DNA of 64,000 nt from Hexactinellida sp. DTS-2022 (Eukaryota; Porifera; Hexactinellida), in NCBI GenBank assembly GCA_028753945.1, contig JAPNXP010000004.1, forward strand, positions 1,240,001-1,304,000, in the 5' to 3' direction. The position numbers and the translations under genes were made by a program. Positions 5,969-60,223 of the stretch are shown piece by piece (position 1 is the stretch's first letter; each line of letters starts with the position of its first letter). The notes beneath the pieces are model-generated. The model did no database searches. It worked only from the letters and a program-made list of their open reading frames with translations, and had not been told where the DNA came from.

Positions 5969-6753
5969 TATATTCTTCCGTAGCTCATCCACTGAACACA
6001 GTTTAATTAACTAAGAGCCCAAATTTTCAAGACAGATGTCTCATGGATTACATATGTGCACCTGTGGTCACAATTTTTTAATTTCGATTTGTAGAAATTG
6101 TTAATGGGTATTTAGATTATTTTGTCCCATAGGAAAATAAAAGAAATTACAAAAATAGTTTTTCAATCATTGGCTTCAGAAAAGTATTTTGGGGCTGATA
6201 GCTCATTCTCGATTTTTTAAATTCGTCCTCATTTTCCATATAATTAGGCTCAAATTTGCCACAATTCACCCTTTGCTTTCTAAAATCGTAATTTCATTTA
6301 TATTCAATTATGCAATTATTTCGTGGTTTTGAGGAAGATCTACTATTTATGAATAATTCAATTAGATTCAGTGTTATTCCGATTCAAGTTATTGTTGATA
6401 TCATAAATACAATACAGGATCCTAGTATACATATACTATGAATAATTAATTTACATTCATAGCTATTACTATTTACAAATCGATTTCTGATATCATAGTT
6501 ACAGTAAAGTTTTCTATTGTGTTAATGAATAATTCAATTTGATTCAATATCTGATACTATATATAAATCGATTTCAAATACTAGTTGTATTGAAGTTTTC
6601 TCCTATATGAAAATTCAATTTCTCTCAACAGTTATTCAATTTCAGAACGATTTCTGGTATCCAAACAATACATTCATGAGATGGAATATCTATTATATCA
6701 ATATTTTTCTGAGGTTTTTTTGGTGCCTAAAGTGTATCAGAGTGATAGGGTGT

Positions 6754-6774
6754 GGGGGGGGGGGGGGAGGGGGG
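6754..6774. repeat. Poly-G tract of variable length between units
   Basis: In unit 1 the tract is 14 G, one A, 6 G. The homologous tracts are: unit 2 at 15915-15924 (10 G), unit 3 at 23578-23586 (9 G), unit 4 at 31239-31248 (10 G), unit 5 at 38901-38925 (18 G, A, 6 G) and unit 6 at 46537-46545 (9 G). It lies in an intron and is the most variable site between units. Long G runs are also error-prone in sequencing. Confidence 0.9.
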
Positions 6775-7053
6775 TTATAACGCATTTATAAATTATAATG
6801 GAAATATACACTTAATCCCTTTTTGTCTTTCTAAGTATACAAGTATGCATATTTCGTATTTCGCATTTCCGAAACTCTATTATGTTACTGTTGACATCTA
6901 CAAATAGGTACACAAATTGGTTTAATTTGGAAATAGCTACAGTAGAACTCAGTCTAACACTACATAGAGATATGTGCATATTTATTGACAAACTTAAGTT
7001 ATACAAGTTAGTACGTACTTAGCCGAAGTGCTTACTAAACAGGTAAGTACTAC

Positions 7054-8367
7054 CAGGGACTTCTTTAATATAGGGACTGTAAACTTCGTTTTACGGTAAA
7101 ATTAGCGTAGGCCTAAAACAGTATTGTTACTTATTGATATCCCGTAATCCGCTAATGCTAGACATAGGAAATGTATTATTGTCGTATAGGAAGTCATATT
7201 TTGGGAGTCCAACGGTAATATTGGTTTATCGAAAATATTTGTGGAATGTAAGTTATGCGATTTTCACACCCTTCCATATATGGTAATTTTGTTAAAATCT
7301 CGAGATTAGTTAGTTTTATACATATGAAATATATTATTGGCGAATGGGAAATGGGAATTCATATTTAGGGACTCAGTAGATCACATTGATTTACCTAAGG
7401 CGTTCCCATTAGCCTATATTATTATTTTGGCACTCTCCACAGGAGGATTGCCCCGACCCTGTTTTGTAGTTTAGCTAATTCTTACATTATTAAAAAATCT
7501 TGATAAGTTTCTTTCAAATCTATATTTAAATCAATGTTGTCCAATAAAATGTATTAAGTGGTGATGAGAAATGGATTTAGGACTACATATTCAGATAAAA
7601 TTCAATTTTTTTTAATACTTTATACATTAATTTCCCAATAACTCTACTGTTATTCAACAGACCGGCTACCTGGTTAATAAAATCTCTAATCGTTAACCGA
7701 TGTCAACAACGGTAACCGGTTAACCGAATCCAGCCTTGTTGTTTTTTAATAAACAACATAATGACAGATATCTGATATGTAAGTATTAGCTAAACTACAA
7801 AACAGGGTCGGGGCAATCCTCCTGTGGAGAGTGCCAAAATAATAATATAGGCTAATGGGAACGCCTTAGGTAAATCAATGTGATCTACTGAGTCCCTAAA
7901 TATGAATTCCCATTTCCCATTCGCCAATAATATATTTCATATGTATAAAACTAACTAATCTCGAGATTTTAACAATATTACCATATATGGAAAGGTGTGA
8001 GAATCGTATAACTTACATTCCACAAATATTTTCGATAAACCAATATTACCGTTGGACTCCCAAAATATGATTTCCTGTACGAAAATGATACATTTCATAT
8101 GTATAAAGTTAAGTAATCTCGAGATTTTAACAAAATTACCATATATGGAAGGGTGTGAAAATCGCATAACATACATTCCACAAATATTTTCGATAAACCA
8201 ATATTACCGTTGGACTCCCAAAATATGACTTCCTATACGACAATAATACATTTCCTGTGTCTAGTATTAGCGGATTACGGGATATCAATAAGTAACAATA
8301 CTGTTTTAGGCCTACGCTAATTTACCGTAAAACGAAGTTTACAGTCCCTATATTAAAGAAGTCCCTG
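7054..8367. mobile_element. Foldback transposable element, complete copy
   Basis: A 1314-bp non-coding element starts CAGGGACTTC and ends GAAGTCCCTG, with arms of about 430-580 bp (about 7054-7487 and 7786-8367) around a loop of about 300 bp. The right arm carries an internal duplication of roughly 150 bp (about 7945-8092 repeated at about 8093-8240). Direct flanks 'gtactac' (7047-7053 and 8368-8374) are a 7-bp target duplication. The homologous place in units 2-6 (for example near 16195-16208) reads 'aagtactaccgag', an intact empty site. CAGGG termini are common in hAT elements, but those usually make 8-bp duplications, so the superfamily is uncertain. Confidence 0.88.
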
Positions 8368-8802
8368 GTACTACCGAGTCCAACTGTACTTACTATGCTA
8401 CGATTGTTATAATGGGTAAACAAGTTGATGATAACAAATTAATTGCGTGTGATGTGAATATATACTGTTGTTGTTCATAAAAGTTAAACAAATGGATGCA
8501 AATATATATGTACATGGATGTCAAAGGGTATTACAGATAAATGCATATTACACTGATGGCTTTGTCAAATGGGAATTGATTAATAATTATTGCGTGTAGT
8601 GGTAAAGTTAAAAAATACAGATATTTTAGATAATATATTTAAATGCTTGACGGGTAAGTGATCCATCGCGAAGCTGACGAGAACAAATGGGTCGTTACAT
8701 TTATATTCATTCCACTCTATGGGAGAAGAAATCTAAAATTACAGCTGTGCAGACAGCATATTCTGGTCATACAGACAGCATATTCTGGTTCACTTTTTTG
8801 AT

Positions 8803-9141
8803 AAAAGCACCAAATTTGTACACATGTACTTTGATGTAGTGCGAACATTTTTCCGAAATTTTCCGATAATTTGATATATCACAATCACATGACCATATTT
8901 GGAATGTGGTCATGTGATATATCAAATTATCGAAAATTTACTTCGAAACCGAATTCTACAATGAAAAGACGATATAACTTAATTTGGACAAGTTTTCATG
9001 GGAAACAAGCCCGGCGAACACTATCGGACGTGGTTACTTTGGCGAGCTGTCATGGCCGATGTAGACACTATTTCGATTACCTCATTATCCAAAAATGTTC
9101 GCACTAAATCAAAGTACATGTCTACAAATTTTGGTGCTTTT
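8803..9141. mobile_element. Palindromic MITE with inner perfect hairpin (in every unit)
   Basis: Outer arms of about 55 bp start 'aaaagcaccaaatttgta' and end 'acaaattttggtgctttt', with 'agtgcgaaca' and 'tgttcgcact' pairing inside. Within it, 'gataatttgatatatcac' and 'gtgatatatcaaattatc' (about 8864-8935) form a second long hairpin. The copy in unit 2 is 16633-16972, and equivalents occur in units 3-6. Short ORFs reading through it are a by-product of the palindrome and have no recognisable domain. Confidence 0.7.
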
Positions 9142-9256
9142 AGCAAAAAATGAACAATCTGTTGAATCTATGGCTATGCCGCTGGACTACTATTAGTCAT
9201 TGAACCCCCAAACTATTATTTTCAATTTGAAGAAATTTTGAGGAGATTTTCATCTA

Positions 9257-9432
9257 CAGTGCAACCGCGATTATCCTTACACGTTGGGACCAGTCAAGCA
9301 TGTTTGGATAATCTACAGTTCGTGTAATTTAAGGCTGAACTAATATATGGAATAACATTGAGACCAATCGGTACGTTCGGATAATCGATGAGTTTGGTTA
9401 ATCGAAGTTCGGAAAATCTAGATTGCATTGTT
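9257..9432. mobile_element. pogo/Tigger-like MITE remnant (in every unit)
   Basis: It begins CAGTGCAACCGCGATTATCC after a TA. Internal phrases 'ttgggacca', 'ttcggataatcg', 'ggttaatcgaag' and 'ttcggataatct' are typical of the ends of pogo/Tigger-type MITEs. The right terminus is not clean, so it is probably truncated. The same block recurs at the equivalent position in units 2-6. No coding capacity. Confidence 0.5.
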
Positions 9433-9464
9433 CACCAACTCCCCTTGCATGTTTGTATGGTGTT

Positions 9465-9624
9465 CAGCCCTTCATCTGGGTGCGAAGTGCGCACCCAGAG
9501 TATTTTAATACTAATTTTGGTCTTTTTTTTGATAAATGTCCTATTTTTGGTAAATTTGGGTGCGCGATTGTAAAATGAACATCACTTTGGGTGCGCGGAT
9601 CTCTTAGGGCTAGATGAAGGCCTG
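9465..9624. mobile_element. hAT MITE private to unit 1
   Basis: A 160-bp element with termini CAGCCCTTCATC and GATGAAGGCCTG, flanked by a perfect 8-bp target duplication 'atggtgtt' (9457-9464 and 9625-9632). The five homologous sites in units 2-6 (for example near 17287-17294) carry a single 'atggtgtt' and no insert. The duplication length and CA/TG ends fit the hAT superfamily. Confidence 0.9.
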
Positions 9625-10370
9625 ATGGTGTTGGATGATTTTCTTCACGCAATTTCCTAGCTACCCTAAGTTAGGTTAGGCTTTGGTTTGGTTATATAAT
9701 TTATTCGTGATTATATATATATTGAACCCCTTAGATTGTGATTTACTCGGTAGGTGGTTACCAGATTTCATTTTTTTAATACTGAAAACTTAACAGGTAT
9801 CTTATGATTTTGGGTTAACTATTGGATAAACTAGGAAATTAATCTGTATTTTCTTAACTCTGAGCCTATGTACTTTTATTTCATAGTTCACGAATGATGG
9901 TTCCAGAAACGCAGGGGATACTTTCAGTTCAGTGACTATTAGACTGGTCTATTTTACATTTCGTGTATCAATAATACATTGGTTCCTTCAACTTTAGATG
10001 TAGTGAAATTATTGAGTTGTCTGCACTTCACACACACAACAATTTATTTTCATTAAAATTGAATTCCATTATGTAGAAGCATATTAGAAAATAGAAAATC
10101 ATCAGGACTTGTAAATTATTGTATTTGTATAAATTTAGTGACAATTAACTACGATGAGTGGCAATTTTGGAACATATTTTCCAGAAAAACGAACCAAATA
10201 AATAAAATCCAATTCCTGTTCCTACTCAGAAATTGTTTGTAATTAAGTAGGAGTGCACTACCTATTGCCCTTATTGATCTATAAATTATGCACAAGTAAG
10301 GTTTGCTTTGAAACGCCTCTCTTTGAGCTCATTTTCTGAATACTATACATATTTACTTACTTTTCATTAG

Positions 10371-10676
10371 TTGATGGTTCTCTTCGTCTCTATGGAAGCG
10401 GTGATAATGATGGAATACTTGAGATATATCACAGTGGTCGATGGGGCTCTGTATGTGACGACCTTTGGGGCTCAGAAGAAAGTCGTGTTGCTTGTAGACA
10501 GTTGGGTTTTACCAATTATGCCTCCTATAGACACGGTAACAGCACCATCAACCATTTTTGGCTTGATGACGTGATATGTATTGGAGATGAATCATCACTA
10601 GTCGATTGTGGTAATGACGGGTGGGGTGTAGACAATTGTGGAGTTTCAGATGGTCTCTATCTCAATTGCACAACAG
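10371..10676 (+). CDS. SRCR domain exon, A-type, unit 1
   Basis: The exon encodes one whole SRCR domain of 102 codons, phase 1 at both ends (acceptor AG at 10369-10370, donor GT at 10677-10678). Canonical motifs: 'LRLYGSGDNDG', 'RWGSVCDDLW', 'VACRQLGF', 'FWLDDVICIGDE', 'LVDCG', 'DNCGVS', 'YLNC'. Six cysteines correspond to C2, C3 and C5-C8 of the family, so it is group A. The acidic D-D after the first cysteine, part of the metal-binding cluster known from some SRCR structures, is intact here, unlike in the B-type. An 'NST' glycosylation sequon lies mid-domain. Array SRCRs probably form an extended binding ectodomain. The first half also reads open in another frame; that reading is a shadow. 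Confidence 0.95.
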
Positions 10677-12557
10677 GTAATGTTACGCTGGTTCTGCGAG
10701 CCAAACCATAATTTTGGCCTAATGTTTAAGTTAATCTATTTGCTCAGAAATTTCCAGGTTTTAGCTAGCATATATATTACATATAATAATATATGATTTT
10801 TGTTTAGCTTACTTTGCACATTTGGAAGGTAGTTTCTATCATGTCTATAAATATAGATTCTATTAACTTATAATTTTAATACAACCCCGGATAAAATTAA
10901 TTAAACAATTATACAAACAAATACACACCAAGTGTGTTTTACTACATCATACATGGTGTTTGCTTAATAATAGCAATTGATCTCTGGGCCGAAGGAAGCA
11001 GTTAGAAAGTGGTCAGACAATGACTTGGCCGTTTCCGCCTTCCATGGGCCTAATAGCTTGTAACTAGCTTTCGCTCAAGTAATTATTTATGTGGCCCTTA
11101 TTTGTTCATAGGAAATCATTCTTTATAAGTTAGTCAAATTCTCACACAAAAAACTGTTAAAGTTGACTAAATTTCATCAGCTTATAGTGCTGATTCACGG
11201 TTTTCCAGAAAGACAATGTCGAAAAGCGGTACAACCTGTCTTTCTCACCCGGAAAAAAGAAAACATTAAATTCCCAAAAAAAATCCTAGCTCAGAATTTG
11301 TTTTCTCATCACAAAAAAATGGTCAATCGAAATCATAGGTTACTAAAGTGACAGTCTATCAGTATTTTTTATGTTATTCTAGCGTCGAATATGTAAGAGA
11401 ATTAAATTATTGCTCTTAAAATATCCCAAATGATTAATAATGCAAGAAATGAATACTCCCAAGTAGGTTTATATCAGATAATAATGCGTTTATTATATTA
11501 TTAGTTGTCAATTAAAGGCCTATCGAGATAATTCCAAATCAAAATAAGGAATATAATATGGGATCTATTGTGCATGAATCTTGTAAAATCTCTAAATCAT
11601 TCTCTTTACTGCACACAACAGTATTTGATGTGAGATTAACAACCTCCAAACAAATCATTTTTTGCATTTTTGAATATTTGTGAAATACTAATATGAATAC
11701 AAAAATTGAATAACGATGCTAAAATAATGAATTTTATCTCATATTTTTCAATTGATAACAATTAGTAAAGTATTTCCTTGCTTACAAGAACCTGAGACTG
11801 AGGTCCAAAAGTATATTTCTAATATAAAGTTGGAAATAATCTTAGATACTGCTATTTTACTACGGAAATATAACTAATGAGTCTCAAACATATATTTTAT
11901 AGAGTACATTAGTTGTTTTGTTTGAATTACAAAAGTTTGAATAACTTTGTTTCGCATTATCGAGGTTCTCATTTTAGAGATGCCTAATTTGCCTATAGAA
12001 AATGTATTTTTCACTAATCCAACGAATTTTCTAATCAAAAAAACAGAAATGTTTGATTCAGAACACCGCTGATCGGATTAGCTGGGGTCTATTGGATATA
12101 TAAAATGAGCAGAATAGGGCCGTTTTTTTCTAATCTAGTACATTTTGTTTACTAAACAAATTTGTTCACCTACATAGTGTTAAAACAATCGAAAATATTT
12201 AAGCAAATAAACTATGTTAAGTAGTGATATTATTGATTAAATAACTAACAATTTTCGCCATAGTATTCCACTATGTGTGCTTATTATATATAAAATTTAT
12301 ACACATTGCTGTGAGATAACATAATCCCAATAGTCACTTGGATGCCCACTACCTCTATTTATACATATGTACGTATATACAAAATATACAGCTCTATGTG
12401 ACGTATAATGTTTCCAATTTATTAGGGACAAACAGACTTACAACAATTGTGTCTTTAATTTACGAGTCCTTCGGTCTTGGTCGCAATATTTAGTATGCGC
12501 ACTTTATGGAATGCACATAGAAAATTTATACTTTTTATCACTAACATTTTTTATCAG
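10677..12557 (+). other. A-to-B intron, unit 1
   Basis: An 1881-bp intron. Its first 300 bases after the donor resemble the start of the intron after exon B (12864 onward; both run 'gttctg', 'gagttaatctatttgct'-like, 'ttttagctagcatat'), showing that A and B arose by tandem duplication of an exon plus flanking intron. About 10987-11053 carries a small element ('gccgaaggaagcagttagaa' to 'ccgccttcc') also present after exon B at about 13150-13250. No exon is seen; the 62-codon ORF at 11163-11351 is not recognisable. The same intron occurs in units 2-6. Confidence 0.7.
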
Positions 12558-12863
12558 CTGATGGCACACTTCGTCTGTATGGAAGCGGCAACGATGATGG
12601 AATACTTGAGATATATCACAGTGGTCGATGGGGCTCTGTATGTTGCAACCATTGGGGCTCAGAAGAAAGTATTGTTGCTTGTAAACAGTTGGGGTTTACC
12701 AATTATGCCTCCTACACATCTTGGATTACCATCATGAAGGATTTTTGGCTTGATGACGTGATGTGTATTGGAGATGAATCATCTCTATTCGATTGTGGTC
12801 ATTTAGGGTGGGGTGTAGACAATTGTGGAGTTTCAGAGGGTCTCTATCTCAACTGCACAACAG
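12558..12863 (+). CDS. SRCR domain exon, B-type, unit 1
   Basis: A 306-nt phase 1-1 exon (acceptor AG at 12556-12557, donor GT at 12864-12865) encoding a full SRCR domain. Motifs: 'LRLYGSGNDDG', 'RWGSVCCNHW', 'VACKQLGF', 'FWLDDVMCIGDE', 'LFDCG', 'DNCGVS', 'YLNC'. It differs from the A-type at the CDDxW position, which reads C-C-N-H-W: the acidic pair is lost and a seventh cysteine is gained. Other differences cluster in the middle ('YTSWITIMKD' against 'YRHGNSTINH' in A), the loop where SRCR ligand specificity often varies. With the preceding A exon it makes the repeated pair. Joining A to B creates an Ala codon at the boundary; joining B to the next A creates Val. Confidence 0.95.
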
Positions 12864-13365
12864 GTAATGTTAACGCTGGTTCTGCTAGCCAAAACCCTAA
12901 TTTTGGCTTAATGTTTGAGTTAATCTATTTGCTGAGAATTTCAAGCTTTAGCTAGCATATTTATGGTATAGAATAATAATGATCTAGTATACTGTATACT
13001 TTCCAGATTTGGATGTTAGTTTCTAACTTTACTATAAATACGGTTTCTATTAACTTATAATTTTAATACAAACCCAATAAAAAGTAATTAAACAAATTTA
13101 CAAGCAAATACACGACAAAGTGAATTACCTAATAGCGATTGTTCTCAGGGCCGAAGGAAGCAGTTAGAAAGTGGTCAGGCCATGGCTTGATCGGCTTAAC
13201 TAGTGGCATAAGAGTGGTCAGACAATGACTTGACCACTTCCGCCTTCCCGGGGTTTAATAGCATGGTTCTAAGCTTTCGCTCAAGTAACAAGTTATGTCG
13301 AATTTATTCCTTCGTGTCTACTCGCCTCAAGATATAAGCCTTTTCGCAACCTTGTTTTCTTCAGT

Positions 13366-13807
13366 CAGGTACTTCTTTAATATAGGGAGTATTAGGGACT
13401 GTAAACTTCCTTTTGCGGTAAAAATTAGCGTAGGCCGAAAACAGTATTGTTACTTATTGATATCCCGTAATCCGCTAATGCTAGACACAGGAAATGTATT
13501 ATTGTCGTATAGGAAGTCATATTTTGACAGTCCAAAGGTCATATTGGTCTATCGAAAATATTTGAGGAATCTAAGTTCTTCGATGTTCACACCTTTCCAT
13601 ATATGGTAATATTGTTAAAATCTCGAGATTAGTTAGCTTTATACATATGAAATGTATTATTGACGAATGGGAAATGGGAATTCATTTCTAGGGACTCAGT
13701 AGATCACATTGATTTACCTAAGGCGTTCCCTTAACCTATATTATTATTTGTCACTCATCACAAAAAGGTTGTCAACCCCTGTTTTGTAGTTTAGCATCTT
13801 CTTACCT
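13366..13807. mobile_element. Single arm of the foldback element (present in every unit)
   Basis: The sequence matches the left arm of the element at 7054-8367, from 'caggtacttctttaatatag' to 'gttttgtagtttagcatctt', with about 10-15% visible differences and one short internal insertion. The opposite arm is missing. Equivalent copies: 21029, 28690, 36352, 43988 and 51650 (left edges). A 104-codon ORF (13295-13609) reads into it; it has no known domain and appears six times only because the units are duplicated. Confidence 0.8.
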
Positions 13808-14007
13808 CACAGATTTCTATAATTATATTGTTTATTAGGAAAATTCGAATTAGATATGCCTCGAAAATGTGTACGTTTATGATGAGTCCCTAAATAGAGA
13901 CACACCGGATCCATTTTTTTCGGATCCGTATCCGCTTTGAGCCGAAATTCCGAATTCTAGAGCAGGTAGCTAAGAATACAATGTATATAGATACGCATTA
14001 CAATCAG

Positions 14008-15225
14008 GGACGTCGCCAGGATTTTATTATCTAGGGGGGGTATATAAATAAGTAGAGGGGGGGAACGTTTATTGATGCTAGAGCTTACAGTGACGCTATA
14101 GGACTGGATCCCGAGAGTGATAGTGGGTGGAGCATGGAGTTATGAGAATTTAGCCTAAATCATCATAAATTACCTAGGCTTGGGCGGTTCTAGGATTTTC
14201 TAGAAGGGAATGTAGTATTTTAAACAATTACATTACCAGCTGGGAGTCTGGGACGCTGTTAGCCTCCCAGTAGGATCCAGGAGCAAAGCCCCTTGAAGTC
14301 CGAAACAATTGAGTGCCATCGGCCAAAGATATCAATACCTACAGATGCGATTATCAGTATATTATTCTTTAAAACGTGAGCGTAGGTAAAGTAAATATGC
14401 AGTGGAACCTCGTTAATACGAACACCAACGGACGGTAAAAATTTCGTTCGCTTTATCCGGAGTTCGTATTAACCGAAGTAATACCCCTTCAATAGGTATT
14501 GTAGTGACTTGATTTTGTGGATCTTTTTGTTCGTCTTATCCGGAAATTCGTATTAAATGTGTTCGTACTAACGAGGTTCTACTGTATATACAATTCATCA
14601 ATCATACTTATCCAAATGTTATATTTGCATTGTACGCTTCTCTGTATAAGGAACCCTCACCAGTTATCTTTCTTTACCTGAAACTGACTCTCAATATACC
14701 GAAATTTATGTTAACTATAATTTTATTGTGTAACAATAATATATTTTCTCGCATATTACCTTTTAATGTTTACATATGTATGTACAGTACGTGGCACCCT
14801 GACAGCTAGATTCGTAGCAAATGGGGAATTGGAGGGAGGGTAATATCCAAATGCCACTGGTGACAACCGTGAACTGTGACAAATTTTTCCCGTGTTCAGT
14901 CCAAAATCATTTGTCCAATTCGATGTGTTCAATTTGAGATTTTATGAATAATAGACTGGGCAGTTCCTTAATTTTGGGAAATCTCGGCCTGGAGTTCCTC
15001 ACTAGGTGCTCCTTATAAAAAATGTGTTGAATAACGTTCACCATGGGCTGCGCAGCCGCACCCCGCACGGATGATTCACCCGCGGGCCCTCAACCGATTA
15101 CAAAGAATTTAGGTAGGGTCCGGGGGCTTCCAAAAAAGGTGGGCCCCTAAAAGGTCGATCAGCCGGGGGCCCCCAAAAAGGTCGATCACCCGGGGCCCCC
15201 CAAAAGCCGCGCCGCCACTGACGTT
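14008..15225. mobile_element. Composite block with GC-rich hAT-like ends (in every unit)
   Basis: Starts with 'cagggacgtcgccaggattt' followed by G-rich runs. Ends in a GC-rich stretch (about 15045-15225) with 'gggggccccc' blocks and a final 'gccgcgccgccactg', whose reverse complement begins CAGTGGCGGCG. Such ends are common in hAT-type non-autonomous elements, but the two ends match poorly and may belong to different insertions. A pogo-like MITE (14400-14584) lies within. No transposase is seen. Present in all six units; the unit 6 copy has additional insertions. Confidence 0.4.
14400..14584. mobile_element. pogo/Tigger-like MITE (in every unit)
   Basis: A 185-bp element with terminal inverted repeats: CAGTGGAACCTCGTTAATAC at the left and, reading inward from the right, CAGTAGAACCTCGTTAGTAC. 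The right flank is TA and the left flank is TG, so the TA duplication has one change. Equivalent copies begin at 22063, 29724, 37386, 45022 and 52684. A diverged relative lies at 62522-62689. Confidence 0.8.
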
Positions 15226-15369
15226 CACTGGTCATTGATACAATTTACTTATTCATTGGAATTTGATTATATATATTTAATGATTGGGTAAATATAACCA
15301 AATTAACTATTAATTCGTATACAAATCCGGATCCGGTAATTCCCATTCTGGATCCAGCCAAATTCCGGT

Positions 15370-15481
15370 GTAGCAGCCCAGATTAACCCCCCATCAGTAT
15401 ATACCCGGGTATAATCTGTCCTAGGCCAGAATATACCCGGGAGTATATTCTGTCCTAGGCCAGATTATACCCGGCCCGTGG
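15370..15481. repeat. Palindromic filler at the unit 1/2 junction
   Basis: About 112 bp lie between the last base shared with the tail of unit 6 and the first base shared with the head of unit 1. It contains the perfect palindrome TATACCCGGGTATA (15400-15413) and repeated near-palindromic blocks 'ctgtcctaggccaga'. The same filler precedes units 3, 4, 5 and 6 (ending at 23144, 30805, 38467 and 46103). It is absent both from the left edge of unit 1 and from the right edge of unit 6. Confidence 0.8.
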
Positions 15482-18033: not shown

Positions 18034-18339
18034 TTGATGGTTCTCTTCGTCTCTATGGAAGCGGTGATAATGATGGAATACTTGAGATATATCACAGTGG
18101 TCGATGGGGCTCTGTATGTGACGACCTTTGGGGCTCAGAAGAAAGTCGTGTTGCTTGTAGACAGTTGGGTTTTACCAATTATGCCTCCTATAGACACGGT
18201 AACAGCACCATCAACCATTTTTGGCTTGATGACGTGATATGTATTGGAGATGAATCATCACTAGTCGATTGTGGTAATGACGGGTGGGGTGTAGACAATT
18301 GTGGAGTTTCAGATGGTCTCTATCTCAATTGCACAACAG
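18034..18339 (+). CDS. SRCR domain exon, A-type, unit 2
   Basis: Protein identical to the unit 1 A-type exon, including its C-D-D-L-W metal-site motif and the NST sequon. Acceptor AG at 18032-18033, donor GT at 18340-18341, phase 1-1. Separated from the B exon of unit 1 by a 5170-bp intron. Confidence 0.94.
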
Positions 18340-20220: not shown

Positions 20221-20526
20221 CTGATGGCACACTTCGTCTGTATGGAAGCGGCAACGATGATGGAATACTTGAGATATATCACAGTGGTCGATGGGGCTCT
20301 GTATGTTGCAACCATTGGGGCTCAGAAGAAAGTATTGTTGCTTGTAAACAGTTGGGGTTTACCAATTATGCCTCCTACACATCTTGGATTACCATCATGA
20401 AGGATTTTTGGCTTGATGACGTGATGTGTATTGGAGATGAATCATCTCTATTCGATTGTGGTCATTTAGGGTGGGGTGTAGACAATTGTGGAGTTTCAGA
20501 GGGTCTCTATCTCAACTGCACAACAG
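20221..20526 (+). CDS. SRCR domain exon, B-type, unit 2
   Basis: Protein identical to the unit 1 B-type exon (C-C-N-H-W motif, seven cysteines). Acceptor AG at 20219-20220, donor GT at 20527-20528, phase 1-1. Confidence 0.94.
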
Positions 20527-40992: not shown

Positions 40993-41298
40993 TTGATGGT
41001 TCTCTTCGTCTCTATGGAAGCGGTGATAATGATGGAATACTTGAGATATATCACAGTGGTCGATGGGGCTCTGTATGTGACGACCTTTGGGGCTCAGAAG
41101 AAAGTCGTGTTGCTTGTAGACAGTTGGGTTTTACCAATTATGCCTCCTATAGACACGGTAACAGCACCATCAACCATTTTTGGCTTGATGACGTGATATG
41201 TATTGGAGATGAATCATCACTAGTCGATTGTGGTAATGACGGGTGGGGTGTAGACAATTGTGGAGTTTCAGATGGTCTCTATCTCAATTGCACAACAG
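40993..41298 (+). CDS. SRCR domain exon, A-type, unit 5
   Basis: Protein identical to the other A-type array exons. Acceptor AG at 40991-40992, donor GT at 41299-41300, phase 1-1. Confidence 0.94.
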
Positions 41299-43179: not shown

Positions 43180-43485
43180 CTGATGGCACACTTCGTCTGT
43201 ATGGAAGCGGCAACGATGATGGAATACTTGAGATATATCACAGTGGTCGATGGGGCTCTGTATGTTGCAACCATTGGGGCTCAGAAGAAAGTATTGTTGC
43301 TTGTAAACAGTTGGGGTTTACCAATTATGCCTCCTACACATCTTGGATTACCATCATGAAGGATTTTTGGCTTGATGACGTGATGTGTATTGGAGATGAA
43401 TCATCTCTATTCGATTGTGGTCATTTAGGGTGGGGTGTAGACAATTGTGGAGTTTCAGAGGGTCTCTATCTCAACTGCACAACAG
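43180..43485 (+). CDS. SRCR domain exon, B-type, unit 5
   Basis: Protein identical to the other B-type array exons. Acceptor AG at 43178-43179, donor GT at 43486-43487, phase 1-1. Confidence 0.94.
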
Positions 43486-46400
43486 GTAATGTTAACGCTG
43501 GTTCTGCTAGCCAAAACCCTAATTTTGGCTTAATGTTTGAGTTAATCTATTTGCTGAGAATTTCAAGCTTTAGCTAGCATATTTATGGTATAGAATAATA
43601 ATGATCTAGTATACTGTATACTTTCCAGATTTGGATGTTAGTTTCTAACTTTACTATAAATACGGTTTCTATTAACTTATAATTTTAATACAAACCCAAT
43701 AAAAAGTAATTAAACAAATTTACAAGCAAATACACGACAAAGTGAATTACCTAATAGCGATTGTTCTCAGGGCCGAAGGAAGCAGTTAGAAAGTGGTCAG
43801 GCCATGGCTTGATCGGCTTAACTAGTGGCATAAGAGTGGTCAGACAATGACTTGACCACTTCCGCCTTCCCGGGGTTTAATAGCATGGTTCTAAGCTTTC
43901 GCTCAAGTAACAAGTTATGTCGAATTTATTCCTTCGTGTCTACTCGCCTCAAGATATAAGCCTTTTCGCAACCTTGTTTTCTTCAGTCAGGTACTTCTTT
44001 AATATAGGGAGTATTAGGGACTGTAAACTTCCTTTTGCGGTAAAAATTAGCGTAGGCCGAAAACAGTATTGTTACTTATTGATATCCCGTAATCCGCTAA
44101 TGCTAGACACAGGAAATGTATTATTGTCGTATAGGAAGTCATATTTTGACAGTCCAAAGGTCATATTGGTCTATCGAAAATATTTGAGGAATCTAAGTTC
44201 TTCGATGTTCACACCTTTCCATATATGGTAATATTGTTAAAATCTCGAGATTAGTTAGCTTTATACATATGAAATGTATTATTGACGAATGGGAAATGGG
44301 AATTCATTTCTAGGGACTCAGTAGATCACATTGATTTACCTAAGGCGTTCCCTTAACCTATATTATTATTTGTCACTCATCACAAAAAGGTTGTCAACCC
44401 CTGTTTTGTAGTTTAGCATCTTCTTACCTCACAGATTTCTATAATTATATTGTTTATTAGGAAAATTCGAATTAGATATGCCTCGAAAATGTGTACGTTT
44501 ATGATGAGTCCCTAAATAGAGACACACCGGATCCATTTTTTTCGGATCCGTATCCGCTTTGAGCCGAAATTCCGAATTCTAGAGCAGGTAGCTAAGAATA
44601 CAATGTATATAGATACGCATTACAATCAGGGACGTCGCCAGGATTTTATTATCTAGGGGGGGTATATAAATAAGTAGAGGGGGGGAACGTTTATTGATGC
44701 TAGAGCTTACAGTGACGCTATAGGACTGGATCCCGAGAGTGATAGTGGGTGGAGCATGGAGTTATGAGAATTTAGCCTAAATCATCATAAATTACCTAGG
44801 CTTGGGCGGTTCTAGGATTTTCTAGAAGGGAATGTAGTATTTTAAACAATTACATTACCAGCTGGGAGTCTGGGACGCTGTTAGCCTCCCAGTAGGATCC
44901 AGGAGCAAAGCCCCTTGAAGTCCGAAACAATTGAGTGCCATCGGCCAAAGATATCAATACCTACAGATGCGATTATCAGTATATTATTCTTTAAAACGTG
45001 AGCGTAGGTAAAGTAAATATGCAGTGGAACCTCGTTAATACGAACACCAACGGACGGTAAAAATTTCGTTCGCTTTATCCGGAGTTCGTATTAACCGAAG
45101 TAATACCCCTTCAATAGGTATTGTAGTGACTTGATTTTGTGGATCTTTTTGTTCGTCTTATCCGGAAATTCGTATTAAATGTGTTCGTACTAACGAGGTT
45201 CTACTGTATATACAATTCATCAATCATACTTATCCAAATGTTATATTTGCATTGTACGCTTCTCTGTATAAGGAACCCTCACCAGTTATCTTTCTTTACC
45301 TGAAACTGACTCTCAATATACCGAAATTTATGTTAACTATAATTTTATTGTGTAACAATAATATATTTTCTCGCATATTACCTTTTAATGTTTACATATG
45401 TATGTACAGTACGTGGCACCCTGACAGCTAGATTCGTAGCAAATGGGGAATTGGAGGGAGGGTAATATCCAAATGCCACTGGTGACAACCGTGAACTGTG
45501 ACAAATTTTTCCCGTGTTCAGTCCAAAATCATTTGTCCAATTCGATGTGTTCAATTTGAGATTTTATGAATAATAGACTGGGCAGTTCCTTAATTTTGGG
45601 AAATCTCGGCCTGGAGTTCCTCACTAGGTGCTCCTTATAAAAAATGTGTTGAATAACGTTCACCATGGGCTGCGCAGCCGCACCCCGCACGGATGATTCA
45701 CCCGCGGGCCCTCAACCGATTACAAAGAATTTAGGTAGGGTCCGGGGGCTTCCAAAAAAGGTGGGCCCCTAAAAGGTCGATCAGCCGGGGGCCCCCAAAA
45801 AGGTCGATCACCCGGGGGCCCCCAAAAGCCGCGCCGCCACTGACGTTCACTGGTCATTGATACAATTTACTTATTCATTGGAATTTGATTATATATATTT
45901 AATGATTGGGTAAATATAACCAAATTAACTATTAATTCGTATACAAATCCGGATCCGGTAATTCCCATTCTGGATCCAGCCAAATTCCGGTGTAGCAGCC
46001 CAGATTAACCCCCCATCAGTATATACCCGGGTATAATCTGTCCTAGGCCAGAATATACCCGGGAGTATATTCTGTCCTAGGCCAGATTATACCCGGCCCG
46101 TGGTTTCGTGGTTTTGAGGAAGATCTACTATTTATGAATAATTCAATTAGATTCAGTGTTATTCCGATTCAAGTTATTGTTGATATCATAAATACAATAC
46201 AGAATCCTAGTATACATATACTATGAATAATTAATTTACATTCATAGCTATTACTATTTACAAATCGATTTCTGATATCATAGTTACAGTAAAGTTTTCT
46301 ATTGTGTTAATGAATAATTCAATTTGATTCAATATCTGATACTATATATAAATCGATTTCAAATACTAGTTGTATTGAAGTTTTCTCCTATATGAAAATT

Positions 46401-48654
46401 CAATTTCTCTCAACAGTTATTCAATTTCAGAACGATTTCTGGTATCCAAACAATACATTCATGAGATGGAATATCTATTATATCAATATTTTTCTGAGGT
46501 TTTTTTGGTGCCTAAAGTGTATCAGAGTGATAGGGTGGGGGGGGGTTATAACGCATTTATAAATTATAATGGAAATATACACTTAATCCCTTTTTGTCTT
46601 TCTAAGTATACAAGTATGCATATTTCGTATTTCGCATTTCCGAAACTCTATTATGTTACTGTTGACATCTACAAATAGGTACACAAATTGGTTTAATTTG
46701 GAAATAGCTACAGTAGAACTCAGTCTAACACTACATAGAGATATGTGCATATTTATTGACAAACTTAAGTTATACAAGTTAGTACGTACTTAGCCGAAGT
46801 GCTTACTAAACCAGGTAAGTACTACCGAGTCCAACTGTACTTACTATGCTACGATTGTTATAATGGGTAAACAAGTTGATGATAACAAATTAATTGCGTG
46901 TGATGTGAATATATACTGTTGTTGTTCATAAAAGTTAAACAAATGGATGCAAATATATATGTACATGGATGTCAAAGGGTATTACAGATAAATGCATATT
47001 ACACTGATGGCTTTGTCAAATGGGAATTGATTAATAATTATTGCGTGTAGTGGTAAAGTTAAAAAATACAGATATTTTAGATAATATATTTAAATGCTTG
47101 ACGGGTAAGTGATCCATCGCGAAGCTGACGAGAACAAATGGGTCGTTACATTTATATTCATTCCACTCTATGGGAGAAGAAATCTAAAATTACAGCTGTG
47201 CAGACAGCATATTCTGGTCATACAGACAGCATATTCTGGTTCACTTTTTTGATAAAAGCACCAAAATTTGTACACATGTACTTTGATGTAGTGCGAACAT
47301 TTTCCGAAATTTTCCGATAATTTGATATATCACAATCACATGACCATATTTGGAATGTGGTCATGTGATATATCAAATTATCGAAAATTTTACTTCGAAA
47401 CCGAATTCTACAATGAAAAGACGATATAACTTAATTTGGACAAGTTTTCATGGGAAACAAGCCCGGCGAACACTATCGGACGTGGTTACTTTGGCGAGCT
47501 GTTATGGCCGATATAGACACTATTTCGATTACCTCATTATCCAAAAATGTTCGCACTAAATCAAAGTACATGTCTACAAATTTTGGTGCTTTTAGCAAAA
47601 AATGAACAATCTGTTGAATCTATGGCTATGCCGCTGGACTACTATTAGTCATTGAACCCCCAAACTATTATTTTCAATTTGAAGAAATTTTGAGGAGATT
47701 TTCATCGACAGTGCAACCGCGATTATCCTTACACGTTGGGACCAGTCAAGTATGTTTGGATAATCTACAGTTCGTGTAATTTAAGGCTGAACTAATATAT
47801 GGAATAACATTGAGACCAATCGGTACGTTCGGATAATCGAAGAGTTTGGTTAATCGAAGTTCGGATAATCTAGATTGCATTGTTCACCAACTCCCCTTGC
47901 ATGTTTGTATGGTGTTGGATGATTTTCTTCACGCAATTTCCTAGCTACCCTAAGTTAGGTTAGGCTTTGGTTTGGATATATAATTTATTCGTGATTATAT
48001 ATATATTGAACCCCTTAGATTGTGATTATACTCGGTAGGTGGTTACCAGATTTCATTTTTTTAATACTGAAAACTTAACAGGTATCTTATGATTTTGGAT
48101 TAACTATTGGATAAACTAGGAAATAATCTGTATTTTCTTAACTCTGAGCCTATGTACTTTTATTTCATAGTTCACGAATGATGGTTCCAGAAACGCAGGG
48201 GATACTTTCAGTTCAGTGACTATTAGACTGGTCTATTTTACATTTCGTGTATCAATAATACATTGGTTCCTTCAACTTTAGATGTAGTGAAATTATTGAG
48301 TTGTCTGCACTTCACACACACAACAATTTATTTTCATTAAAATTGAATTCCATTATGTAGAAGCATATTAGAAAATAGAAAATCATCAGGACTTGTAAAT
48401 TATTGTATTTGTATAAATTTAGTGACAATTAACTACGATGAGTGGCAATTTTGGAACATATTTTCCAGAAAAACGAACCAAATAAATAAAATCCAATTCC
48501 TGTTCCTACTCAGAAATTGTTTGTAATTAAGTAGGAGTGCACTACCTATTGCCCTTATTGATCTATAAATTATGCACAAGTAAGGTTTGCTTTGAAACGC
48601 CTCTCTTTGAGCTCATTTTCTGAATACTATACATATTTACTTACTTTTCATTAG

Positions 48655-48960
48655 TTGATGGTTCTCTTCGTCTCTATGGAAGCGGTGATAATGATGGAAT
48701 ACTTGAGATATATCACAGTGGTCGATGGGGCTCTGTATGTGACGACCTTTGGGGCTCAGAAGAAAGTCGTGTTGCTTGTAGACAGTTGGGTTTTACCAAT
48801 TATGCCTCCTATAGACACGGTAACAGCACCATCAACCATTTTTGGCTTGATGACGTGATATGTATTGGAGATGAATCATCACTAGTCGATTGTGGTAATG
48901 ACGGGTGGGGTGTAGACAATTGTGGAGTTTCAGATGGTCTCTATCTCAATTGCACAACAG
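48655..48960 (+). CDS. SRCR domain exon, A-type, unit 6
   Basis: Last A-type exon, protein identical to the other five. Acceptor AG at 48653-48654, donor GT at 48961-48962, phase 1-1. Confidence 0.94.
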
Positions 48961-50841
48961 GTAATGTTACGCTGGTTCTGCGAGCCAAACCATAATTTTG
49001 GCCTAATGTTTAAGTTAATCTATTTGCTCAGAAATTTCCAGGTTTTAGCTAGCATATATATTACATATAATAATATATGATTTTTGTTTAGCTTACTTTG
49101 CACATTTGGAAGGTAGTTTCTATCATGTCTATAAATATAGATTCTATTAACTTATAATTTTAATACAACCCCGGATAAAATTAATTAAACAATTATACAA
49201 ACAAATACACACCAAGTGTGTTTTACTACATCATACATGGTGTTTGCTTAATAATAGCAATTGATCTCTGGGCCGAAGGAAGCAGTTAGAAAGTGGTCAG
49301 ACAATGACTTGGCCGTTTCCGCCTTCCATGGGCCTAATAGCTTGTAACTAGCTTTCGCTCAAGTAATTATTTATGTGGCCCTTATTTGTTCATAGGAAAT
49401 CATTCTTTATAAGTTAGTCAAATTCTCACACAAAAAACTGTTAAAGTTGACTAAATTTCATCAGCTTATAGTGATGATTCACGGTTTTCCAGAAAGACAA
49501 TGTCGAAAAGCGGTACAACCTGTCTTTCTCACCCGGAAAAAAGAAAACATTAAATTCTCAAAAAAAATCCTAGCTCAGAATTTGTTTTCTCATCACAAAA
49601 AAATGGTCAATCGAAATCATAGGTTACTAAAGTGACAGTCTATCAGTATTTTTTATGTTATTCTAGCGTCGAATATGTAAGAGAATTAAATTATTGCTCT
49701 TAAAATATCCCAAATGATTAATAATGCAAGAAATGAATACTCCCAAGTAGGTTTATATCAGATAATAATGCGTTTATTATATTATTAGTTGTCAATTAAA
49801 GGCCTATCGAGATAATTCCAAATCAAAATAAGGAATATAATATGGGATCTATTGTGCATGAATCTTGTAAAATCTCTAAATCATTCTCTTTACTGCACAC
49901 AACAGTATTTGATGTGAGATTAACAACCTCCAAACAAATCATTTTTTGCATTTTTGAATATTTGTGAAATACTAATATGAATACAAAAATTGAATAACGA
50001 TGCTAAAATAATGAATTTTATCTCATATTTTTCAATTGATAACAATTAGTAAAGTATTTCCTTGCTTACAAGAACCTGAGACTGAGGTCCAAAAGTATAT
50101 TTCTAATATAAAGTTGGAAATAATCTTAGATACTGCTATTTTACTACGGAAATATAACTAATGAGTCTCAAACATATATTTTATAGAGTACATTAGTTGT
50201 TTTGTTTGAATTACAAAAGTTTGAATAACTTTGTTTCGCATTATCGAGGTTCTCATTTTAGAGATGCCTAATTTGCCTATAGAAAATGTATTTTTCACTA
50301 ATCCAACGAATTTTCTAATCAAAAAAACAGAAATGTTTGATTCAGAACACCGCTGATCGGATTAGCTGGGGTCTATTGGATATATAAAATGAGCAGAATA
50401 GGGCCGTTTTTTTCTAATCTAGTACATTTTGTTTACTAAACAAATTTGTTCACCTACATAGTGTTAAAACAATCGAAAATATTTAAGCAAATAAACTATG
50501 TTAAGTAGTGATATTATTGATTAAATAACTAACAATTTTCGCCATAGTATTCCACTATGTGTGCTTATTATATATAAAATTTATACACATTGCTGTGAGA
50601 TAACATAATCCCAATAGTCACTTGGATGCCCACTACCTCTATTTATACATATGTACGTATATACAAAATATACAGCTCTATGTGACGTATAATGTTTCCA
50701 ATTTATTAGGGACAAACAGACTTACAACAATTGTGTCTTTAATTTACGAGTCCTTCGGTCTTGGTCGCAATATTTAGTATGCGCACTTTATGGAATGCAC
50801 ATAGAAAATTTATACTTTTTATCACTAACATTTTTTATCAG

Positions 50842-51147
50842 CTGATGGCACACTTCGTCTGTATGGAAGCGGCAACGATGATGGAATACTTGAGATATAT
50901 CACAGTGGTCGATGGGGCTCTGTATGTTGCAACCATTGGGGCTCAGAAGAAAGTATTGTTGCTTGTAAACAGTTGGGGTTTACCAATTATGCCTCCTACA
51001 CATCTTGGATTACCATCATGAAGGATTTTTGGCTTGATGACGTGATGTGTATTGGAGATGAATCATCTCTATTCGATTGTGGTCATTTAGGGTGGGGTGT
51101 AGACAATTGTGGAGTTTCAGAGGGTCTCTATCTCAACTGCACAACAG
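50842..51147 (+). CDS. SRCR domain exon, B-type, unit 6
   Basis: Last array B-type exon, protein identical to the other five. Acceptor AG at 50840-50841, donor GT at 51148-51149, phase 1-1. A 4894-bp intron rich in insertions separates it from the final SRCR exon. Confidence 0.94.
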
Positions 51148-53411
51148 GTAATGTTAACGCTGGTTCTGCTAGCCAAAACCCTAATTTTGGCTTAATGTTT
51201 GAGTTAATCTATTTGCTGAGAATTTCAAGCTTTAGCTAGCATATTTATGGTATAGAATAATAATGATCTAGTATACTGTATACTTTCCAGATTTGGATGT
51301 TAGTTTCTAACTTTACTATAAATACGGTTTCTATTAACTTATAATTTTAATACAAACCCAATAAAAAGTAATTAAACAAATTTACAAGCAAATACACGAC
51401 AAAGTGAATTACCTAATAGCGATTGTTCTCAGGGCCGAAGGAAGCAGTTAGAAAGTGGTCAGGCCATGGCTTGATCGGCTTAACTAGTGGCATAAGAGTG
51501 GTCAGACAATGACTTGACCACTTCCGCCTTCCCGGGGTTTAATAGCATGGTTCTAAGCTTTCGCTCAAGTAACAAGTTATGTCGAATTTATTCCTTCGTG
51601 TCTACTCGCCTCAAGATATAAGCCTTTTCGCAACCTTGTTTTCTTCAGTCAGGTACTTCTTTAATATAGGGAGTATTAGGGACTGTAAACTTCCTTTTGC
51701 GGTAAAAATTAGCGTAGGCCGAAAACAGTATTGTTACTTATTGATATCCCGTAATCCGCTAATGCTAGACACAGGAAATGTATTATTGTCGTATAGGAAG
51801 TCATATTTTGACAGTCCAAAGGTCATATTGGTCTATCGAAAATATTTGAGGAATCTAAGTTCTTCGATGTTCACACCTTTCCATATATGGTAATATTGTT
51901 AAAATCTCGAGATTAGTTAGCTTTATACATATGAAATGTATTATTGACGAATGGGAAATGGGAATTCATTTCTAGGGACTCAGTAGATCACATTGATTTA
52001 CCTAAGGCGTTCCCTTAACCTATATTATTATTTGTCACTCATCACAAAAAGGTTGTCAACCCCTGTTTTGTAGTTTAGCATCTTCTTACCTCACAGATTT
52101 CTATAATTATATTGTTTATTAGGAAAATTCGAATTAGATATGCCTCGAAAATGTGTACGTTTATGATGAGTCCCTAAATAGAGACACACCGGATCCATTT
52201 TTTTCGGATCCGTATCCGCTTTGAGCCGAAATTCCGAATTCTAGAGCAGGTAGCTAAGAATACAATGTATATAGATACGCATTACAATCAGGGACGTCGC
52301 CAGGATTTTATTATCTAGGGGGGGTATATAAATAAGTAGAGGGGGGGAACGTTTATTGATGCTAGAGCTTACAGTGACGCTATAGGACTGGATCCCGAGA
52401 GTGATAGTGGGTGGAGCATGGAGTTATGAGAATTTAGCCTAAATCATCATAAATTACCTAGGCTTGGGCGGTTCTAGGATTTTCTAGAAGGGAATGTAGT
52501 ATTTTAAACAATTACATTACCAGCTGGGAGTCTGGGACGCTGTTAGCCTCCCAGTAGGATCCAGGAGCAAAGCCCCTTGAAGTCCGAAACAATTGAGTGC
52601 CATCGGCCAAAGATATCAATACCTACAGATGCGATTATCAGTATATTATTCTTTAAAACGTGAGCGTAGGTAAAGTAAATATGCAGTGGAACCTCGTTAA
52701 TACGAACACCAACGGACGGTAAAAATTTCGTTCGCTTTATCCGGAGTTCGTATTAACCGAAGTAATACCCCTTCAATAGGTATTGTAGTGACTTGATTTT
52801 GTGGATCTTTTTGTTCGTCTTATCCGGAAATTCGTATTAAATGTGTTCGTACTAACGAGGTTCTACTGTATATACAATTCATCAATCATACTTATCCAAA
52901 TGTTATATTTGCATTGTACGCTTCTCTGTATAAGGAACCCTCACCAGTTATCTTTCTTTACCTGAAACTGACTCTCAATATACCGAAATTTATGTTAACT
53001 ATAATTTTATTGTGTAACAATAATATATTTTCCCGCATAATACCTTTTAATGTTTGGATATGTATGTACAGTACGTGGCATCCTGACAGCTAGATTCGTA
53101 GCAAATGGGGAATTGGGGGGAGTTAGCAAATTTCCCAAAATGGGCGAAATTAATGACGAAGTTAAGTCCATATTTCTATTTTACCGGTAAATGGAAGGGC
53201 AACGATTGAAAATGGTGGAGGGAGGGTACTATCCAAATGCCACTGGTGACAACAGTGAACTGTGACAAATTTTTCCCGTGTTTAGTCCAAAATCATTTGT
53301 ACTATGTAGTTATTCAATTCGATGTGTTCGATTTGAGATTTTATGAATAATAGCCTGGGCAGTTCCTTAATTTTGGGAAATCTAGGCCTGGAGTTCCTCA
53401 CTAGGTGCTCC

Positions 53412-53598
53412 CAGGGCCGGCCTTACAGTTTGCGAGGCTCTATGCACAAGGCCAGCTAGACAGTTTGCGGGGCCCTAAATCCCAGAATACCCTAGAGTAC
53501 TTGATCCCATATCAATGAAATGTACAGTGAAGTGCGGGCCCCACTACCGCGGGGCCCTAGGCCCCTGCCTAGGTCGCCTTGCCCTAAGGCCGGGCCTT
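53412..53598. mobile_element. hAT MITE private to unit 6
   Basis: A 187-bp GC-rich element starting CAGGGCCGGCCTTA and ending 'taaggccgggcctt', with a perfect 8-bp target duplication 'ggtgctcc' (53404-53411 and 53599-53606). The other five tails have one copy of 'ggtgctcc' with no insert (for example near 15005). It is made of 'ggggccc'-type runs and has no ORF. Confidence 0.85.
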
Positions 53599-54030
53599 GG
53601 TGCTCCTTATAAAAATGTGTTGAATAACGTTCACCATGGGCTGCGCGGCCTAACCCCGCACGGGTGATTCACCCGCGGGCCCCTCAACCGATTACAAAGA
53701 ATTTAGGTAGAGGTCCGGGGGCTTCCAAAAAAGGTGGGCCCCTAAAGATCGATCACCCGGGGGCCCCCAAAAGCCGCGCCGCCACTGACGTTCACTGGTC
53801 ACTGATACAATTTACTTATTCATTGGAATTTGATTATATATATTTAATGATTGGGTAAATATAACCAAATTAACTATTACAGTGGATGCCGGTTATAAGC
53901 ACATCGTCGGGAACTGCACTTAATGTGCTTATAACCGGCATGTTCTTATAACCGACATAATTATATAGGGTATATGGCTACCGTTTTCCAACATAGTGTG
54001 CTTATATCGATATATTCTTATAACCGGTGT

Positions 54031-54967
54031 CAGGGGCGTCAGGTTGACCAAAAAAGCGGGGGGGCCGTTGTACTAGTTCATTCAATATGTCAAATACACA
54101 AATTAAAATGAATAGTAATATCAATTATATTTTGAATCCTTCCATGTCTGCATTCCATGTCTGCATTTCCTCAAGCTTATTGAAGATAGCTTGAGGAATT
54201 CTTAAAATAAGTTAATGCGTGACCTACGTTATAATAAGGCCTGTTCACTAGTGTTAAATTTTGGACCATGGATGTCGTTTAAGTCCATTGATATTTTTAC
54301 AATAAATGTTATAGTCAGAGATAATTAACCAAGTAGTAATCCATAACGAAAAATATGAATGCCTTGCTACCCTTGCAGTCGGTTCGTATCGAAAATTCTC
54401 GAAAAATACATAAAGTTAAACCCGATTAGTTATTATTATTCTTCAAATGTTTATTTGCTAAAAACTTATATTAACTTTCATGTTTTCTTTAATATTTTGT
54501 ACTATTGCAACATTATTTACTTCAAATGTGCTTGGTATTAAACCCAATAATATTTTACTTCTTCTGGATTACAACTTGGTTAATTATCTCTGACTATAAC
54601 ATTTATTCTAAAAAGAATCAATGGACTTAAACGACATCCATGGTCCAAAATTTAACACTAGTGAACAGGCCTTAATATAACGTAGGTCACGGTTAATGAC
54701 ATTAATTTGTTTATGATAATATTAATTGGCTTATATTACACGTATACATTTCAAATACATAAATAAATAATATATAATCAGTAGTATCTAGTATTGCAAT
54801 CACGCACTGCATATTTATTTACAGCACATTGAGTAAACTAGGATCAAAATACTTTAAAGTGAGCATAATTTTTGAAAAGAAACTGGGGGGGCGGCCCCCC
54901 CGGTTTTTGGCTCATTTCAAAACAGGGGGGGCGAGCCCCCCCGCCCCCCCGGAACCTGACGCCCCTG
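54031..54967. mobile_element. hAT-like element nested in the TA-type MITE
   Basis: A 937-bp element with matching ends CAGGGGCGTCAGG and CCTGACGCCCCTG and a perfect 8-bp duplication 'accggtgt' (54023-54030 and 54968-54975) of its host element. G/C homopolymer runs sit next to each end. No transposase ORF is present; the only ORF (54359-54541) is AT-rich and without a recognisable domain. It is itself interrupted by a third element. Confidence 0.9.
54218..54691. mobile_element. Foldback MITE nested inside the hAT-like element
   Basis: A 474-bp element with inverted repeats of about 115 bp: the left arm runs from 'cgtgacctacgttat' to 'tatctctgac'-complementary sequence at about 54335, the right arm from about 54577 to 'ataacgtaggtcacg'. 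Flanking 'gttaatg' occurs at 54211-54217 and 54692-54698, a 7-bp target duplication. This is the third and youngest layer of the nest. Non-coding. Confidence 0.85.
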
Positions 54968-55099
54968 ACCGGTGTGCTTATATCCGACATCTACTGTAAT
55001 TCGTATACGAATCCGGATCTGGTAATTCCCATTCTGGATCCAGCCAGATTCCGGGTCCACCCAAATTTGGGAAAATTCCGCCGGATCCAGGATCCGGGT

Positions 55100-60160: not shown

Positions 60161-60223
60161 GTGTGTATAACGCTATTTAACATAATATTAAATATGAATA
60201 TAATTTGATAAAGCTATCTTTAG

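Follow-up and report, generated by a model that had tools for sequence, protein, structure and literature searches.

A young tandem array of SRCR exon pairs in a probable adhesion-GPCR gene of a hexactinellid sponge

Multi-SRCR receptors with repeated SRCR blocks are known in an immune setting from bovine WC1. The locus described here lies in a window of 64,000 nucleotides of the sponge Hexactinellida sp. DTS-2022 (contig JAPNXP010000004.1, C13 below; C13:1240001-1304000), carries a tandem array of near-identical SRCR exon pairs and, judging by its domain order, most likely belongs to an SRCR adhesion G protein-coupled receptor (GPCR) gene larger than the window. WC1 receptors differ from it in that they are single-pass, form a multigene family and have diverged domains.

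A closer likeness is offered by human DMBT1/SALSA, in which tandem SRCR units (CNV1, CNV2) likewise lie in one gene and unit number sets domain number; according to the published account, a molecule has 7-20 SRCR domains depending on the allele, and CNV1 mutates at a rate of 0.7-2.7% per generation (PMC4851238). The present locus likewise has in-frame, high-identity tandem SRCR exon units in what is probably one gene. However, DMBT1 is secreted and contains SID, CUB and ZP domains, whereas the array described here precedes FN3, Ig and seven-transmembrane (7TM) domains, and its variation is predicted. In the sponge Amphimedon queenslandica, the adhesion GPCRs Aq712029 and Aq715659 likewise have multiple SRCR domains before an adhesion-type 7TM, and fn3 and Ig domains are also found in that adhesion-GPCR family; in its available part, this account is silent on near-identical tandem exon pairs, DNA homogenisation and copy-number variation (PMC4302439). 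Sponge Group C SRCR domains, as described in another report, have seven cysteines in Amphimedon, the seventh lying outside the internal disulfides, with external disulfides proposed and duplication units of one or two SRCR domains. Those SRCR domains are encoded by three exons each, as opposed to one exon here, and the Group C likeness concerns cysteine number. In the same report, 7tm_2 is among the commonest SRCR companions in the sea star column, so the SRCR-7TM pairing is probably not limited to sponges (PMC10855680). No report of a tandem SRCR array in a GPCR was found among the titles and abstract starts of the open-access papers listed. SRCR adhesion GPCRs and SRCR copy-number variation are each known, and it is their combination that appears to be new.

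The data analysed were one genome assembly of 112.4 Mb in 18 contigs. Comparison of the window with itself revealed copies that are nearly identical and spaced about 7,662 bp apart; they form an array of six 7.66-kb units over 9625-53122 on the plus strand, with a leader from 6319 and a truncated sixth unit. The units lie at 9625..17287 (unit 1, 7,663 bp), 17288..24948 (unit 2, 7,661 bp), 24949..32611 (unit 3, 7,663 bp), 32612..40246 (unit 4, 7,635 bp, with a 42-bp deletion in its spacer), 40247..47908 (unit 5, 7,662 bp) and 47909..53122 (unit 6, which ends inside a transposon after 5,214 bp). The leader (6319..9624, plus strand) is an edge copy of the spacer between exon pairs and holds two terminal-inverted-repeat (TIR) elements that are missing from the other five spacers: one of about 1.3 kb (7054..8367), with CAGGGACTTC...GAAGTCCCTG ends and a 7-8 bp target-site duplication, and one of 160 bp (9465..9624), with CAGCCCTTCATC...GATGAAGGCCTG ends and the 8-bp duplication ATGGTGTT. 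A preliminary description of this DNA had placed unit starts at 6319, 15482, 23145, 30806, 38468 and 46104, and the self-comparison reproduces all six. Its six near-identical units of 7.66 kb are likewise recovered, with the corrections that the first is 1.5 kb longer because of the two TIR-element insertions and that unit 4 carries the spacer deletion. Its array end at 55080 does not hold: high identity stops at about 53034-53122, where 6 of 94 columns are private to unit 6.

Divergence within the array is very low. Pairwise substitution divergence among units was 0.026-0.210%, and the core common to all six units showed 3 substitutions and 1 indel over 4,903 gap-free columns. The longest exact repeat measured 9,013 bp (9840 vs 25164, distance 15,324), unit 3 sharing it with unit 1 and the first part of unit 2, which excludes chance similarity; good long reads exceed this length and could in principle resolve the array. 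Each unit contains one A exon and one B exon. The A exon of unit 1 (10371..10676) encodes a CDD motif and six cysteines (Pfam SRCR E=1.7e-22, splice sites present), and its copies in units 2-6 start at 18034, 25695, 33358, 40993 and 48655. The B exon of unit 1 (12558..12863) encodes a CCN motif and seven cysteines (Pfam SRCR E=2.7e-20, splice sites present), with copies starting at 20221, 27882, 35544, 43180 and 50842. It had been proposed that all A exons encode one protein and all B exons another; they are in fact identical even in DNA (6/6 each). Identity extends from -533 to +517 around the 300-nt A cores (starts 10373, 18036, 25697, 33360, 40995 and 48657) and from -1152 to +1747 around the B cores (starts 12560, 20223, 27884, 35546, 43182 and 50844). 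Since the whole core varies at only 4 positions, exon identity by itself is no proof of selection.

An SRCR hidden Markov model (HMM) built from 46 seed open reading frames (ORFs) of three loci was applied to C13:1150001-1344000. It identified 19 plus-strand SRCR exons at C13:1181374-1296343, spanning 115 kb, five of them upstream of the window. Each of the 19 is bounded by an AG acceptor and, in phase 1, a G|GTAAT donor; by motif they comprise 9 CDD, 9 CCN and 1 CGN. DNA identity was 93.3-96.3% between exons of the same type and 85.3-89.0% between A and B, while the exons at C13:1181374 and 1189545 were 87.7-92.7% identical to the remaining SRCR exons. The array is flanked by an older B-type exon on the left (2907..3212, plus strand; CCN, seven cysteines; Pfam SRCR E=5.4e-19, AG/GT, phase 1-1) and another on the right (56042..56347, plus strand; SRCR HMM, splice sites and DNA identity). 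Earlier described as clearly diverged, these two exons are B-type members of the same set, with 93.7% (left) and 94.3% (right) DNA identity to the array B exon.

With a length of 306 nt and phase 1-1 for every exon of the array, gain or loss of a unit would stay in frame and change the protein by 204 residues per step. The claim that the array adds twelve SRCR domains and would change receptor length in such steps is thus borne out by exon length and phase, with splicing predicted. A different way to set receptor length would be splicing itself, with the SRCR exons acting as alternative cassettes or with much of the array never spliced in. The symmetry of all 19 exons (phase 1-1) allows any subset to be skipped in frame; however, cassettes that are identical would, in contrast to known cassette systems, add nothing to sequence diversity, and we regard this explanation as unlikely.

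Downstream of the last SRCR exon and on the same strand, seven ORFs were scanned against Pfam, of which four matched fn3, fn3, Ig_3 and 7tm_2 in this order and three had no significant match. FN3 domain 1 lies in an ORF at 57497..57868 (E=2.1e-8) and FN3 domain 2 in an ORF at 58939..59367 (E=3.5e-10). They are followed by an ORF with an Ig domain (59510..60205; Ig_3 E=1.1e-7), in which position suggests that a GAIN domain probably begins, and by an ORF with a weak GPS and transmembrane segments (TM) 1-3 of 7tm_2 (61068..61580; E=1.5e-6). The TM1-3 exon scored 28.1 bits against a cut-off of 20.6, as expected of a secretin-type 7TM, and the genome scan gave a match at C13:1301269. The ORF for TM4-7 lies outside the window (C13:1309422-1310348); alone it had no significant Pfam match, and its aligned identity to a 7tm_2 gene on contig C6 is 36%. 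The GPS scored 17.4 bits (Pfam cut-off 22.5), with the motif NHFTSF and without the cysteines. The seven scanned ORFs gave no Pfam match to GAIN and contain no CUB or ZP domain. By genomic order and exon phases, the array and the FN3, Ig and 7TM parts are probably one gene. The preliminary description had proposed a recent expansion within one receptor-type gene, which array identity and domain order support; it had missed the probable extension of the gene into FN3, Ig and an adhesion-GPCR-type 7TM.

The paralogous locus on C6 (4683001-4712000) has a comparable layout. Its 15 SRCR matches are of two alternating types and recur in tandem about every 1.37 kb; upstream of its own 7TM, a block of 5.58 kb is duplicated at 99.6%. 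Its GPS has the canonical HLT, and GPS plus TM1-3 of the present locus aligns with it at 40%. It represents a second adhesion-GPCR locus, which carries a young array of SRCR pairs of its own. One ORF of this locus contains, as judged by eye, some six Ig-like repeats, several of them nearly alike.

Alternatively, the array could belong to a separate secreted or single-pass protein, apart from the downstream 7TM gene. In favour of this stands the neighbouring cluster at C13:860356-918917 on the minus strand, whose 19 SRCR exons are mutually diverged and all of CDD type (19/19); the 12 kb read downstream of it contained nothing that matched the 7TM part. Two matches were found inside this cluster, one (55%, E=1.2e-8) covering the opening 55 residues of the TM4-7 ORF and the other a portion of the second FN3 ORF; both lie in what are taken to be intron or repeat parts. 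No credible match to a downstream 7TM was obtained for the cluster, and VWA-like-looking ORFs were noted there instead by reading. Against a separate protein, the array shares its strand with the downstream domains, the first ORFs that can be recognised beyond the last SRCR are FN3, FN3, Ig and then 7TM, the order at C6 is likewise SRCR, Ig-like repeats and 7TM, and SRCR adhesion GPCRs are reported in Amphimedon (PMC4302439). We consider a separate protein very unlikely.

At the protein level, the two exon types differ in their putative ligand sites. In SRCR8 of DMBT1, cation site 2 is formed by D1019, D1020 and E1086 and site 3 by D1020, D1058, D1059 and N1081, and D1019A and D1020A each abolished ligand binding (PMC7043408). 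In an ungapped manual count from LDDV, the A exon reads CDD at 1018-1020 and D, D, N and D at 1058, 1059, 1081 and 1086. The A domains thus appear to keep the cation-site residues that DMBT1 uses for Ca2+-dependent ligand binding, and with 80 bits (Pfam SRCR) and six cysteines they conform to SRCR group A. The B exons read CCN at positions 1018-1020, meaning that both aspartates are lost and one cysteine is gained, and all four distinct B-type exons depart from the six cysteines of group A by having seven. B-type exons (n=4) showed 26 non-synonymous and 6 synonymous changes, compared to 10 and 9 in A-type exons (n=3); faster amino-acid change in B was not accepted, as a crude majority count gave Fisher p = 0.055, a hint at most. 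The B-type amino-acid changes bunch in one loop, 8 of 26 falling at codons 53-60, with others at 68 and 82; the loop (codons 53-61 of the B core) corresponds to window 12716-12742 and to the same place in other B-type exons. AlphaFold prediction of the B domain, for which the 4 SRCR sequences of the window were supplied, returned a mean pLDDT (predicted local distance difference test) of 38.8 and a pTM (predicted template modelling score) of 0.34 and was discarded.

Each unit also carries about 2.1 kb of a dispersed TIR transposon. In unit 1 it occupies 13366..15481, with the left TIR present and the right TIR missing, and it stands in register in the other units, being cut in unit 6. Among the matches listed, this transposon occurs on 15 of 17 other contigs, and one C6 copy keeps both inverted ends. 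The transposon reaches 15481 and is directly followed by the sequence that begins at 6319; the array joint lies inside the transposon. An inverted repeat with 32-nt arms (15405..15474) ends 7 bp before the junction 15481/15482. Right of the array, the same transposon resumes in pieces with 88-95% identity, and a diverged remainder of this type extends over 53216..55573, with the right TIR at 55121-55573. This right-flank transposon also contains an imperfect palindrome of about 470 bp (76%, window 54218-54691). In the left flank of 6319, nothing homologous to the transposon was detected at E <= 1e-3, and visual inspection revealed no clear microhomology. A first duplication driven by homology was rejected since no transposon homology is present left of 6319, and a non-homologous joint is preferred for the same reason. 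The first duplication may thus have been non-homologous and may have arisen at a fragile hairpin, a break mechanism suggested by the adjacent inverted repeat.

The differences among the copies bear on how the array has been maintained, which the preliminary description had left between recent expansion and homogenisation. Variants are shared by units that are not adjacent: units 4 and 6 have two body sites in common, units 2 and 5 share an indel and, within the transposon, a single substitution, and spacers 1 and 3 share three sites; the leader and spacer 4 agree at one site adjoining a poly-G tract. In gap-free columns, private substitutions numbered 12, 0, 2, 0, 8 and 0 in the leader and spacers 1-5. 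Five of the leader's 12 adjoin an insertion point and are probably misalignment; columns within 8 of a gap were therefore left out, as target-site duplications misalign there, and the counts became 7, 0, 2, 0, 7 and 0. These reduced counts were still far from equal shares (simulation, p = 0.0006). A strict edge gradient was rejected, given that the leader's 12 falls to 7 and no longer exceeds the count of spacer 4. In that spacer the 7-8 private changes lie mostly next to the 42-bp deletion and may have been imported from elsewhere.

These patterns are to be weighed against one recent duplication burst with no ongoing homogenisation, in which later mutation would explain the differences. The very low divergence throughout and the lack of private substitutions in spacers 1, 3 and 5 fit such a burst, and the drop of the leader's private count from 12 to 7, no more than spacer 4, shifted weight toward it. 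It fits less well with the unequal shares of private changes, the restriction of the two element insertions to the leader and the jump to 6/94 private columns at the right edge, and sharing between non-adjacent units requires multi-unit exchange or conversion. Uneven private changes, distant sharing and abrupt edges thus favour, though not decisively, repeated unequal exchange or conversion, and we hold a single burst to be possible but doubtful. The choice originally left open leans, on the non-adjacent shared variants and the uneven private changes, to exchange or conversion.

The same comparisons address an assembly artefact, in which the unit number would be inflated, or haplotypes joined in tandem, and the true count would be fewer or different. 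Units 1 and 3 are alike except at the left edge of unit 1, the exact repeat reaches 9,013 bp, and units 3 and 5 have no private changes, all of which an artefact could produce. The window is without Ns, however, and units 1, 2, 4 and 6 hold private changes; the order of shared variants (1 with 3, 2 with 5, 4 with 6) is unlike that of a simple doubled haplotype, differences of 0.03-0.2% look below usual haplotype divergence, and the second locus behaves alike at varied divergence. An artefact is accordingly quite unlikely in our judgement.

Taken together, we consider it reasonably probable that the window covers the central part of a very long SRCR adhesion-GPCR gene in which an exon pair was duplicated at a transposon joint and its copies were homogenised. 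One A-B exon pair with the transposon behind it would have been tandemly duplicated at a joint inside the transposon, beside the hairpin-forming repeat; the 7.66-kb copies would then have multiplied and been kept alike by unequal exchange and/or gene conversion, each gain or loss of a unit shifting the extracellular part by 204 residues in frame. As a best guess, the receptor would bind repetitive microbial or cell-surface ligands in a multivalent, Ca2+-dependent manner, with avidity and reach scaling with unit number and signalling through the 7TM, and the B domains may serve as spacers or disulfide cross-linkers.

Several points weigh against this interpretation. The GPS stays below the Pfam cut-off and reads HF/T instead of HL/T, and a 5' signal-peptide exon was not identified, no systematic search having been made. 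The private substitutions of spacer 4 equal those of the leader (7 vs 7), leaving no clean edge gradient. Neither FN3 ORF is matched at the C6 paralogue, which means that the two architectures differ in places, and the poor structure prediction (pLDDT 38.8) lends no support to the idea of an exposed cysteine. The A and B copies are alike mainly through the youth of the array, and selection is unreadable from them. All evidence comes from the genomic sequence of one assembly and one individual.

Regarding the surroundings of the array, minus-strand ORFs between the older SRCR exons encode reverse transcriptase, RNase H and integrase, and others Helitron and PIF1 domains. The Helitron-type and long-terminal-repeat (LTR)-retrotransposon-type ORFs at C13:1226535-1236053 and 1193128-1197495 partly explain the gene's length. 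In the whole genome, the profile scan gave at least 153 SRCR exon matches and 71 7tm_2 matches, together with 16 homeodomain and 4 nuclear-receptor ligand-domain matches, low numbers of regulatory genes that, like the genome size, are in keeping with a sponge. At C15:3.80-3.93 Mb, five 7tm_2 loci are interleaved with many SRCR exons, and by coordinates 4 of the 5 have upstream same-strand SRCR among the matches listed.

By analogy with human DMBT1, unit number is predicted to differ between individuals. In the sponge Aplysina aerophoba, one SRCR gene and one GPCR gene rose on exposure to microbial patterns (PMC6208332), a response that may fit an immune role in general terms only. A speculative and rather improbable extension is that rapid gain and loss of 204-residue SRCR pairs, in which Ca2+-site and cysteine domains alternate, makes the extracellular length hypervariable. 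Sponge individuals would then carry different length alleles that serve to recognise microbes or to tell self from non-self, and two or more SRCR adhesion-GPCR loci of the genome would undergo the process independently. Should such alleles exist, the avidity for ligands and the reach of the receptor would be inherited and open to genotyping by a single long-read assay, and a role in microbe or self recognition could be tested directly. The locus shows stepwise how a transposon joint can seed an exon array, and at two loci of an early-branching animal DMBT1-like change seems to be at work in the extracellular part of a signalling GPCR.

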